Origin: Cellulophaga sp. BC115SP
GTDB lineage: Bacteria > Bacteroidota > Bacteroidia > Cytophagales > Spirosomataceae
DNA length: 64,000 nucleotides
Direction of reading: 5' to 3'
Assembly: GCF_009905545.1 (NCBI RefSeq)
Contig: NZ_JAAALB010000017.1
Location: 1-64,000, forward strand
Each line of letters starts with the position of its first letter. The first letter of the stretch is position 1. This document shows, in pieces, positions 8,005-58,733 of this stretch. A model generated the notes under the pieces. It was not told where the DNA came from, did no database searches, and saw only the letters and a list, made by a program, of their open reading frames with translations. The position numbers and the translations under genes were made by a program.

Positions 8005-8316
8005 ACTTGATTAATTATGAATTTTTTAACCTAATTCGGATTTGGGATTTGGGATTTCGGAAATATTGCTAGTTCAAGACTTAGTCTTGGACTTACTTTT
8101 TTTAACAGTTTACAACTGAACTAATCTCTTCTTTTACTTATTCTGAATTAATGCTCTAAATAAAACATTTTCTTGCCAGAATCATTCCATTTTTAGATAC
8201 TTTAACATTTGTCTATAAAAATAGGGCAGCCAACAAGCCTATTTGTCAGCTGCCCTATACTATGTCAAAAGTCTATTTCGAAAACACACAACTTAGGGTG
8301 TTACATTCCTTCAATA
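8005..8316 (-). terminator. Intergenic region with an algH terminator hairpin
   Basis: The perfect 10-bp stem ATAGGGCAGC (8221-8230) pairs with GCTGCCCTAT (8249-8258). On the minus strand it is followed by a T run, so it should terminate the algH transcript, whose stop is at 8317. The same gap holds a short fragment (about 8040-8078) with the GGATTTGGGATTTCGGAAAT words of the R3 repeat family. Otherwise it is non-coding. Confidence 0.6.
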
Positions 8317-9607: not shown

Positions 9608-9700
9608 GTGACCTCACTTCATTAGGTAGATGGTTAAAACTAATCTATTATACCATAAAGAAAAGTTTGTTTGCAAGGAAAAATATCAAGAACGAATCAT

Positions 9701-9831
9701 AAAAAAAGGCGGTCGAAATGAGTTTTTCGACCGCCTTTTTTTATGCTAAAACTTATGATGACAAACCTTTAAACGCAAATATTGCATCTCTACGGATGAA
9801 GTACATATTAAAAAATAATCACTCAGTTCAT
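9701..9831. repeat. Terminator-bearing palindromic repeat R2, copy A
   Basis: A hairpin with stem AAAAAAAGGCGGTCGAAA (9701-9718) and its complement ending at 9742 forms a bidirectional terminator between convergent folK and the fatty-acid-hydroxylase gene. To its right come degenerate versions of the family's second part (ACGCAAATATTGCATCTCTACGG) and the terminal AATAATCACTCA word. The hairpin has T runs on both strands. See copies at 30423, 32268, 36464, 38268, 47324 and 58580. Confidence 0.8.
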
Positions 9832-13807: not shown

Positions 13808-13938
13808 CATTTCCCTTCGCAACTCCTTACTTTTCTTGTCTTGACACAAGAAAAGTAACCGCAGCGGCGGCCGCAAAAGAAAGTCAAGAAATCCTAAACT
13901 CGCCTGCGGCTCAAACAACAGGATTTCAGAAAATAAAA
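13808..13938. repeat. Dispersed palindromic repeat R1, copy 2
   Basis: The second copy of the element at 1516-1673, shorter by about 27 bp. The first stem is better preserved here, with TTACTTTTCTTGT facing ACAAGAAAAGTAA, followed by GCAGCGGCGGCCGC, CAAAAGAAAGTCAAG and the GAAATCCT/AGGATTTC pair. It lies upstream of the divergent bshA and UbiA genes and has no coding signal. Confidence 0.8.
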
Positions 13939-14124
13939 CACTTAACATCATAAAGTTTTCATTTGGGAGACTTTATGAAATTAAAGAATACTATAATTGA
14001 CCATATTGCTGATAGCTAATAAATCTATTTTGTAAAAAACATTAGATTTATTCTAGATTAGCTTTTAACAGATACCTCGTTAACTCATAACAACAAATAG
14101 AACAAAGCGTGTAATTTTGTTTTC

Positions 14125-16560: not shown

Positions 16561-16588
16561 CTTTAAGCCTAATTCCTATGGCTTAAAG
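16561..16588. repeat. 9-bp stem hairpin after ftsL (R4-like fragment)
   Basis: CTTTAAGCC (16561-16569) pairs exactly with GGCTTAAAG (16580-16588) immediately after the ftsL stop. The words resemble the R4 repeat family. There is no U run, so it is more likely a repeat remnant or an RNA-stabilising hairpin than a terminator. Confidence 0.55.
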
Positions 16589-30422: not shown

Positions 30423-30575
30423 ATCAAAAAAGCGGTTGGAAAATATTTTCCGACCGCTTTTTTGATAATATGACTCGGCTTAAGACGCAATCATTGCGTC
30501 TCTACCGCTAGAATACAAATTTTAAAATAATCACTCATTCGCTCAATCTCAATTCACTCAATAATTAAGAATGGC
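30423..30575. repeat. Terminator-bearing palindromic repeat R2, copy B
   Basis: The hairpin 30423-30466 (ATCAAAAAAGCGG... with complement) ends transcription from both the efflux operon and convergent purN. Its stem reads GCGGTTGG/CCGACCGC, differing from the family's GCGGTCG. To the right come ACTCGGCTTAAGACGCAATC, its hairpin partner ATTGCGTCTCTAC, and AATAATCACTCATTCGCTCA. Confidence 0.85.
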
Positions 30576-32267: not shown

Positions 32268-32405
32268 ATCAAAAAAAGCGGTCGAAAAATAATTTTCGAC
32301 CGCTTTTTTTGATACTATATTTCGGAAGGAGACCTATTTAGACGCAAAGCATTGCGTCTCTACTCATGAAATGTAGATTTAAAGAATAATCACTCATTCG
32401 CCAAA
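32268..32405. repeat. Terminator-bearing palindromic repeat R2, copy C
   Basis: The hairpin at 32268-32313 has stem AAAAAAAGCGGTCGAAAA and its complement. On its right are AGACGCAAAGCATTGCGTCT and ATAATCACTCATTCGCCAAA. It lies between two genes pointing the same way, unlike the copies placed between convergent genes. Confidence 0.82.
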
Positions 32406-36164: not shown

Positions 36165-36463
36165 ATTTAAGGTTTATCATTCATTGTAATATTAACAAAA
36201 CGTTAAATTAACAAATGCCAAGCCTTTTAAAAAATTTATGGAGCGAAATGTTTACCCTATTATAGAAAAAATATGATTCTATCATCAATAGAAAGGTATA
36301 ACGGATATAGATAAGGCTCTTGCGACTCATTTTTTTAAAGTCAGTCTCCTACTCTTGCTAAAACTATAACTTGTTACTGGCTTACTTTATTTCAAAATTG
36401 TATTTAAAAAAGATTACTCCTCACTTTGTCTCTCATCAACATCAAAGTTATGTGTCTTTCCTG

Positions 36464-36607
36464 ATTGAGTGAATGGTGGTTGAGTGATTATGTAAAAATT
36501 TGTATTCTAGCAGTAGAGACGCAATGATTGCGTCTTAAGCCAAGTCATATCTAGCATAGTAGCATCAAAAAAGCGGTCGAAAAATATTTTTCGACCGCTT
36601 TTTTGAT
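36464..36607. repeat. Terminator-bearing palindromic repeat R2, copy D
   Basis: Reading left to right: GAGTGAATGG and GAGTGATTATG, AGTAGAGACGCAATGATTG pairing with CGTCTTAAGCC, then the terminator hairpin at 36564-36607 with stem AAAAAAGCGGTCGAAAAAT. It is the mirror orientation of copy B. It occupies the 542-bp gap between the small helical gene and the PEBP-like gene; the rest of that gap (36165-36463) is AT-rich and empty. Confidence 0.85.
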
Positions 36608-36706
36608 AAAAACTTGGAGAATAACCCTATTCTAAAAATTCGGGATGACTCATGTTTGATAAACTGTCAAGATAAATCTGTTGATTTTCTCGTTTGCGAA
36701 GCTTTA

Positions 36707-38267: not shown

Positions 38268-38515
38268 ATTGAGTGGGTGAGTGATTTAGTGATTTTTTAA
38301 ATCTGTATTCCAACAGTAGAGACGCAATGTTTTGCGTCTTAAGCCGATTCATTTCTAGTGTATATTAAAAAGGCGGTCGAAAAACCAATTCCGACCGCCT
38401 TTTTAATAGAATATTTTAGCAAATAGTTCATGAGCTTTAGACACAAAATATGGCATCTCCACTAGTAAAATTTATGAAAAACAATCACTCATTCACTCAA
38501 TCACAACTTACTAAA
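38268..38515. repeat. Terminator-bearing palindromic repeat R2, copy E
   Basis: The left half has GAGTGGGTGAGTG, AGTAGAGACGCAATGTTTTG and CGTCTTAAGCC; the hairpin is at 38364-38407 (stem ATTAAAAAGGCGGTCG with its complement); the right half carries degenerate GACACAAAATATGGCATCTCC and AATCACTCATTCACTCAATC. It ends gyrB transcription and separates gyrB from the regulator. Confidence 0.83.
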
Positions 38516-47323: not shown

Positions 47324-47600
47324 ATTGAGTGAATGGAGATTGAGTGAATTAGTGATTATGTTAAAATTGGTATATCAACCGTAGAGACGTAATACTTTAC
47401 GTCTAAAACTGAGTTCTATCTAGCATCAAAAAAAGCGTTCGAAAAACAATTTTCGAACGCTTTTTTTGATAAAAATTATTGAATCATGTTTGTTTCAAAA
47501 TTCAGGATGACTCATGTTTTGATACTACTACGCTATCTCTGACTCGGCTTAAGACGTAAAATATTACGTCTCTACGAATTCAAATAATCACTCATTCACT
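47324..47600. repeat. Terminator-bearing palindromic repeat R2, full-length symmetrical copy F
   Basis: Outer arms GAGTGAATTAGTGATTAT (left) and AATCACTCATTCACT (right) are inverted. Inside each arm sits a hairpin with GACGTAA and TTACGTC (left about 47386-47404, right about 47552-47570). In the centre the terminator stem at 47425-47470 reads AAAAAAAGCGTTCGAAAA with its complement. It fills the 301-bp gap between convergent genes. Both stems differ from other copies by paired changes. Confidence 0.87.
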
Positions 47601-58537: not shown

Positions 58538-58585
58538 CTTTTTCCCAATAGGGTGCGACTTAAGTCGCACCCTATTGGGAAAAAG
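58538..58585. repeat. 48-bp perfect palindrome
   Basis: Two 24-nt arms are exact complements with no loop. The left arm begins CTTTTTCCCAATAGGG at 58538 and ends at 58561; the right arm runs 58562-58585. The centre is CTTAAG. It lies 80 bp after the SCP2-like stop and directly abuts copy G of the terminator repeat. Such long perfect palindromes are unstable in many hosts, so its maintenance is notable. Confidence 0.85.
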
Positions 58586-58616
58586 CGCTCGAAAAATATT
58601 TTTCGAGCGCTTTTTT
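58580..58616. terminator. R2 terminator copy G between convergent genes
   Basis: Stem AAAAAGCGCTCGAAAAAT with its complement ends in TTTTTT. The stem reads GCGCTCG/CGAGCGC, where most copies have GCGGTCG/CGACCGC, so both sides have changed together. It separates the SCP2-like gene and nadB. Degenerate outer parts of the family follow to about 58735. Confidence 0.8.
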
Positions 58617-58733
58617 GATACTAATACTACTATGCTATGTTTTACTCTGCTTCAAATGCAAGCATTGTGTATCTACTGATGGAACGTAGATTTAAAGAAT
58701 AATTTTCAAAACTCTTCACTCAAAACTCCTCAC

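Follow-up and report, generated by a model that had tools for sequence, protein, structure and literature searches.

The seven hairpins which we have analyzed form the core of what is, with clearly better than even chances, a genus-level interspersed repeat of Flectobacillus with a bidirectional terminator at its centre. Its symmetry would be maintained mainly by template switching, with selection probably keeping the repaired forms, and its copies would replace resident hairpins. Under this reading, a transcript arriving from either side would form a G+C-rich stem of 7–8 pairs, extended by A:U pairs, and would end in the T run. The core would lie within a composite palindrome, whose arms are GTAG-tagged hairpins of a family-wide type. 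A mutation in one arm would leave a half-changed stem. A template switch during replication would then copy one arm onto the other, which would restore the pairing and could flip the loop. The repaired forms would probably be retained by selection for termination in both directions, especially between convergent genes. Finally, copies would have replaced the hairpins resident at orthologous gene ends, through some copying step.

The window, that is, the whole stretch of 64,000 nt, belongs to contig C78 of a 7.08-Mb genome in 206 contigs (G000). Each of the seven central hairpins has an A run on the 5' side, a near-perfect stem and a T run on the 3' side, so both strands read as intrinsic terminators. 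They are found at 9698..9745 and 38363..38408 (both with the stem GGCGGTCG/CGACCGCC), 32268..32313 and 36564..36607 (both GCGGTCG/CGACCGC), 30423..30466, 47425..47470 (GCGTTCG/CGAACGC, loop AAAAACAATTTT) and 58576..58619 (GCGCTCG/CGAGCGC). The stem variants at 47425 and 58580 had already been described from the sequence alone and are present as described, but the hairpin at 30423, counted with the common form, is half-changed, with GCGGTTG against CGACCGC. The seven hairpins (all folded on the + strand, two of them also on the - strand) fold 6 to 10 sd better than dinucleotide shuffles of each, and for every one of them 0 of 200 shuffles gave an equally good fold. The core pattern, with up to two mismatches, matches five of the seven copies and no other site in the window, with 0.00 matches expected from 100 shuffled windows. 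Shuffle folding and the core-pattern scan thus show that seven copies with a common central hairpin, as first claimed, are real and far beyond chance. A generic terminator scan of the window finds 15 candidates for 13.3 expected from shuffles, a total which is not above the shuffles. No Rfam family matches the window at its gathering score.

All seven copies are downstream of a predicted stop codon, in agreement with the first description, which placed them just past gene ends. The hairpin centre is 66–143 nt from the stop in six cases and 460 nt for the copy at 32269. In 668 kb of G000, 34 sites match the covariance model R1 presented below, weak ones included: 32 are intergenic and have been classified, one is inside a predicted ORF and one, at the end of a stretch, has been left unclassified. 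Convergent genes surround 21 of the 32 classified sites and tandem genes the other 11, none being between divergent genes. The 346 background gaps of at least 100 bp in the same 668 kb comprise 60 convergent, 211 tandem and 75 divergent ones (Fisher p 1.2e-10 for the convergent excess and 4e-4 for the divergent deficit, with the sites counted as part of the gaps). All 32 classified sites follow at least one predicted stop codon, and the median distance from hairpin centre to nearest stop in these 668 kb is 119 nt. A preference for convergent genes and an avoidance of divergent ones is what two-way terminators would show. Bidirectional termination, proposed from the beginning, is well supported by anatomy and gene context, and the hairpins are real and repeated and very probably act as bidirectional terminators.

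The core, a near-perfect hairpin of 17–21 bp, lies inside a composite palindrome of roughly 200 bp. From the outside to the centre, its layers are the ends ATGAGTCATCCC / GGGATGACTCAT, GAGTGA words, a GTAG-tagged hairpin (GTAGAGACGCAA..TTGCGTCT) and the terminator. The ends ATGAGTCATCCC / GGGATGACTCAT, or near forms, are terminal inverted repeats found on both sides in copies such as those of loci 19 and 21, and degenerate in other copies. With these further end repeats, whole copies exceed the extents first given and reach about 195 to 300 bp. For example, the 36464 copy as a whole (left arm, terminator and right arm) occupies 36463..36657 on the + strand, a span which recurs in congeners, with its GTAG-tagged hairpin at 36513..36535 (+). 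In many copies a GTAG arm is present on one side and a shorter arm on the other. Five of the seven window copies have a single GTAG-type hairpin. Those to the right of the core are on the - strand, at 9771..9793 (9701 copy, degenerate), 30483..30505 (30423 copy), 32340..32363 (32268 copy) and 58654..58676 (58580 copy, degenerate). Only the 47324 and 38268 copies have two; in the latter, the left one is at 38316..38339 (+) and the right one is degenerate. The flanking hairpins attributed to most copies are thus present on one side, but only these two copies have them on both.

In the 47324 copy, the left GTAG-tagged hairpin (GTAGAGACGTAATACTTTACGTCT) is at 47381..47404 on the + strand and the right one, with its GTAG on the - strand, at 47552..47575. 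Zones of GAGTGA words are found at 47326..47353 (+) and at 47583..47599 (-, AATAATCACTCATTCAC, family D7), and GGATGACTCATGTTT at 47505..47519 (+) resembles the end repeat. The pair GACGTAA/TTACGTC reported for 47386-47570 does occur in both flanking hairpins, but it is also found outside this genome: in two congeners the orthologous sites have GACGTAA on both sides, bar one changed letter in G003. A script has detected six GTAG-hairpin doublets, missing the one at 47324. Long-range homogenisation of the two flanking GTAG hairpins was considered and is not supported: the mean number of differences is 4.7 within an element versus 4.3 between elements (n=6), and 4196 of 5000 shuffles give a value at least as small. 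Another family of palindromes, around GGGTGCGAC, is found at 58538-58585 of the window and at 84046 and 127027 of contig C78. The palindrome at 58538 has a T run before it and an A run after it, and occupies the place of the left arm of the element.

We have built the covariance model R1 from 25 copies. At least 75 sites in the genome match it (at least 150 hits, as one site can give one hit per strand). Among the 59 genomes searched, G000 included, at least 106 hits are found in each of G000, G001, G002 and G003, and seven in another congener, G004. Weaker hits are present in 25 of the 54 non-congeners, with 1 to 14 in each and a best E of 3e-8. Such a search had been suggested when the family was first described, with the absence of further copies as the result that would speak against it; further copies are found genome-wide and in congeners. 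The composite pattern, GTAG hairpin plus terminator, has been scanned for in one genome per species in 84,980 species, where the records of the genome itself or of very near ones may be absent. All 16 stretches detected are from Flectobacillus longus LYT7W or Flectobacillus sp. BAB-3569.

The GTAG hairpin has a wider distribution. There are 115 hits in G000 (up to two mismatches, some on both strands of one place) and none for the reversed control. The GTAG arm pattern alone is found in 75 of 200 genomes of the family, the five congeners among them, and in 16 of 36 genera, and the reversed pattern gives 0 throughout. Inverted GTAG pairs about 110 bp apart are present in G030 and G123, from one genus, and in G032, from another. 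By eye, none of these pairs has an A/T-flanked hairpin; one (L215) has a central hairpin without a T run. As the GTAG hairpin is family-wide and these pairs lack the A/T-flanked hairpin, the version that carries a terminator looks like a variant, proper to Flectobacillus, of a REP-like repeat present across the family. In G179, a genome of the family from another genus, the GTAG hairpin has 116 + 107 hits. Among the literature matches listed, none deals with this repeat, with repeats of Flectobacillus in general or with the inversion of spacers in terminators of bacteria.

We have compared orthologous sites in the congeners, most long blocks being about 86 to 96% identical. At eight loci (19, 20, 21, 22, 25, 47, 58 and 65) the element is present in one species, and an unrelated hairpin stands in its place in another. 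This hairpin is flanked by clear A and T runs at loci 19 (in G001), 20, 25, 47, 58 and 65, and by weaker ones at 21 and 22. The count leaves out rows 46 and 62, which are weak hits on ordinary hairpins, and 8/40, where the other hairpin has only a low score. Scoring the hairpins of the alternative alleles is not, on its own, a stringent test: those at loci 20, 22 and 47 score 22 to 25, less than the 95% point of 28.7 for random 340-nt windows, whose median is 12.8. At loci 7, 24 and 41 the inner part differs within an outer GAGTGA palindrome.

Three of these loci bear on the direction of change. The resident hairpin is common to G000 and G003 at locus 47, with the element in G001; to G001 and G003 at locus 19, with the element in G000; and to G000 and G001 at locus 58, with the element in G003. 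Whichever pair is sister, two of the three patterns put the resident hairpin in non-sisters, so any three-species tree would require, barring interspecies transfer, that the element has replaced the resident hairpin in at least two of them. Among the outgroup alleles read, those of G002 are an element at locus 19 and different hairpins at the remaining loci; in G004 they are different hairpins, or no hairpin is clear. At loci 20 and 25 terminator-like hairpins differ among congeners with no element involved, so turnover is general here. We have seen no target-site duplication by eye in ten aligned loci, and the resident hairpin is absent where the element sits. Arms of different type are found at the same orthologous site in the 58580 and 36564 copies and at locus 4. 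The first description spoke of a mobile or gene-converted set, which is supported by the presence or absence of the element between species and by the exchange of arms and hairpins at fixed sites.

The element is present in two or more species at 21 loci. The loops are asymmetric and alignable, and can be read, at 13 of them; in the other eight they are symmetric or too different. The loop is inverted at five of the 13 loci, exactly at loci 4, 18, 22 and 32 and with one mismatch at locus 27, and keeps its orientation at loci 2, 6, 8, 9, 20, 23, 26 and 31. The flanks are collinear on both sides at the inverted loci 18, 22, 27 and 32; at locus 4 the left flank is collinear and the right arm is of another type. 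Locus 32 is the hairpin at 47425: G000 has GCGTTCG with the loop AAAAACAATTTT, and both G001 and G003 have GCGGTCG/CGACCGC with its exact reverse complement, AAAATTGTTTTT. The loop of the hairpin at 9698..9745 is inverted in G003 with one mismatch. Locus 41 is a palindrome without a terminator; between these two genomes, G000 and G003, its interior is turned round, and a paired change lies next to the loop.

Of 40 palindromes compared between G000 and G003, 29 have the same orientation, six have been marked as flipped and five are ambiguous. Among the six, only 47425, 137357 and 189854 are exact, while 161498, 105237 and 127027 are weak. The corresponding numbers for 20 palindromes compared between G000 and G001 are 15, three and two. 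The ordinary palindromes readable between G000 and G003 comprise 26 which keep their orientation and none which is clearly flipped. A possible flip of the ordinary terminator at locus 58 has been ruled out, as the loop is identical in the two species once both are read in the same orientation. Inversion is thus seen only in the palindromes of the repeats. Arm homogenisation combined with spacer inversion is the published signature of template switching at inverted repeats (PMC8604942, PMC8794818). The changes between related genomes described here resemble it: an inverted spacer with the flanks in place is found at four loci with both flanks, and also at locus 41. Those reports deal with RNA genes and yeast coding genes, and our case is one of bacterial terminator-like repeats.

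Stems, loops and arms may also be rewritten together by ectopic gene conversion among the dispersed copies, or by a template switch to one of them. We give this process slightly less than even chances, and it can act beside the in-place one. It would account for the arms of different type at orthologous sites, for stem variants which are common genome-wide and for the lack of flips in ordinary, non-repeat palindromes. At locus 32 the change may equally well have come from other copies by conversion, because the core at 47425 is identical in G000 to a copy elsewhere in the genome (L021); its loop is frequent, being found five times on the + strand and two times inverted in the G000 sequence examined. 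This does not apply to locus 41, whose palindrome occurs once in each of the whole genomes of G000 and G003 (up to three mismatches), so no donor copy is at hand and conversion cannot explain the flip. Locus 18 is also poorly explained, as its exact core is single-copy in both G000 and G003; relatives with one mismatch number five in G000 and four in G003. A further proposal, on which we would not bet, is that these terminators are a self-propagating population: modules would spread by hairpin-for-hairpin exchange at gene ends, through ectopic template switching with no transposase. The same process would keep them symmetric, so that two-way terminators would be maintained by copying rather than by selection.

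An unlikely explanation is a REPIN mobilised by a RAYT transposase, with a centre that happens to be a terminator. The repeat resembles the GTAG-tagged REP/REPIN sequences (PMC3733652, PMC3116915) in being a short extragenic GTAG palindrome of high copy number, sometimes in inverted pairs, with two-sided paired changes. It differs from them in its central terminator hairpin, its extra end repeats, its single GTAG hairpin in most window copies and in that no cognate RAYT has been found. The GTAG directly before a short hairpin, the wide occurrence of the arm pattern against none for its reverse, the inverted pairs in two other genera and the existence of one Y1_Tnp gene above the cut-off in G000 would agree with such an origin. 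However, this RAYT-like gene, on contig C35, is flanked by a different GTAG palindrome. The GTAGAGACGCAA arm (up to one mismatch) is absent from about 3.3 kb around all seven Y1_Tnp loci examined, among at least 22 matches. In G002 a search for Y1_Tnp gives nothing at E up to 1, yet this genome has at least 106 terminator-model hits, and the doublet is lacking in five of the seven window copies, where a single arm is present. With no cognate RAYT flanked by the palindrome of the repeat (0 of 7 loci), RAYT mobilisation is not supported. As a separate observation, the region of the Y1_Tnp gene at G000:C35:56562-56783 (L031) has three GTAGGTGCTGGAT palindromes within 1 kb and abuts the right half of a repeat copy.

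Classical compensatory evolution, that is, point mutations in one arm at a time, with selection for a working terminator on both strands keeping the arms paired, seems quite unlikely to us, although part of the evidence agrees with it. In the alignment of 25 copies, which were chosen with the stem pattern, a choice favouring paired ones, 93.2% of the cells are paired and 11 of 20 pairs have changed on both sides. None of 500 shuffles reaches four of five pairing measures; the remaining one, which concerns further pair types, is attained in 42 of the 500. Half-changed stems occur, not only at 30423 in the window but also in G001 at loci 22 and 31, and the placement at gene 3' ends is also as expected. 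On the other hand, in this alignment neither pair 10-38 nor pair 14-34 has a copy where a change on a single side has given another standard pair. Two-sided base-pair differences between species are found in same-register rows at six loci (6, 20, 28, 30, 32 and 33), and in five of them pair 5 changes as GC/TA or GC/CG, a step for which a G-U pair cannot serve as intermediate. The commonest swaps are of this kind. Inverted loops are not expected from compensatory evolution, and neither is the combination of a paired change and a flip in the terminator-free palindrome of locus 41. An automatic stem count gives 28 two-sided changes and 19 one-sided or messy ones in 33 comparisons, but register shifts make it too high: once rows 0/63, 1/61, 5/57, 7/55 and 30/37 are removed, the numbers are 11 and 11 in 28 comparisons. 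The 73 hairpins of G000 used for comparing arms and stems include a few doubtful ones.

The sequence-only reading concluded from the joint change of both arms that the structure is under selection. This is not a safe inference, as the loops are inverted between species, also in a palindrome without a terminator. Since template switching and gene conversion each alter the two arms in one step, with no selection involved, paired changes are not by themselves proof of selection. Selection may still decide which forms persist, but sequences alone do not show it. It is common practice to regard paired changes as the strongest sign of selection on an RNA structure. Here, hairpins with paired changes also show inverted loops, so that part of the pairing can come from DNA copying. 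With dozens of near-identical hairpins at orthologous gene ends of close species, the origin of pairing becomes directly testable in a bacterium; these hairpins also suggest that a repeat can supplant terminators outright.

The recurrence of a preferred terminator sequence by chance or selection, with no repeat family, can practically be discarded: the weaker model hits in 25 of 54 non-congeners would agree with it, but homology spans about 200 bp, arms and ends are common to the copies, and four of the five congeners have at least 106 hits while no other genome is above 14.

Two other kinds of repeat may be compared with the Flectobacillus one. Paired DNA uptake sequences reportedly form terminators, so that a dispersed repeat doubles as terminators at gene ends; the Flectobacillus repeat differs from them in being a composite palindrome and in its presence or absence between species. 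MITE-like repeats, such as ERIC, Correia and RUP, are intergenic sequences of about 100–300 bp with inverted terminal repeats. Unlike these, the Flectobacillus repeat has no parent transposon that we have found, and sites with the element lack the resident hairpin.

The window also contains other repeats. An intergenic family around ATTTCGGATATCGGATGTTGGATTTCGG is found at 8032, 9524, 44357, 50747, 61877 and 63553, and a second family, TGCCTAACGCCTACGGCTTATAGCC, at 16566, 18919, 45994, 49612 and 60543. Two repeat blocks, 1583-1676 and 13864-13941, are about 12.3 kb apart and have 34 nt identical and 43 nt at 93%.
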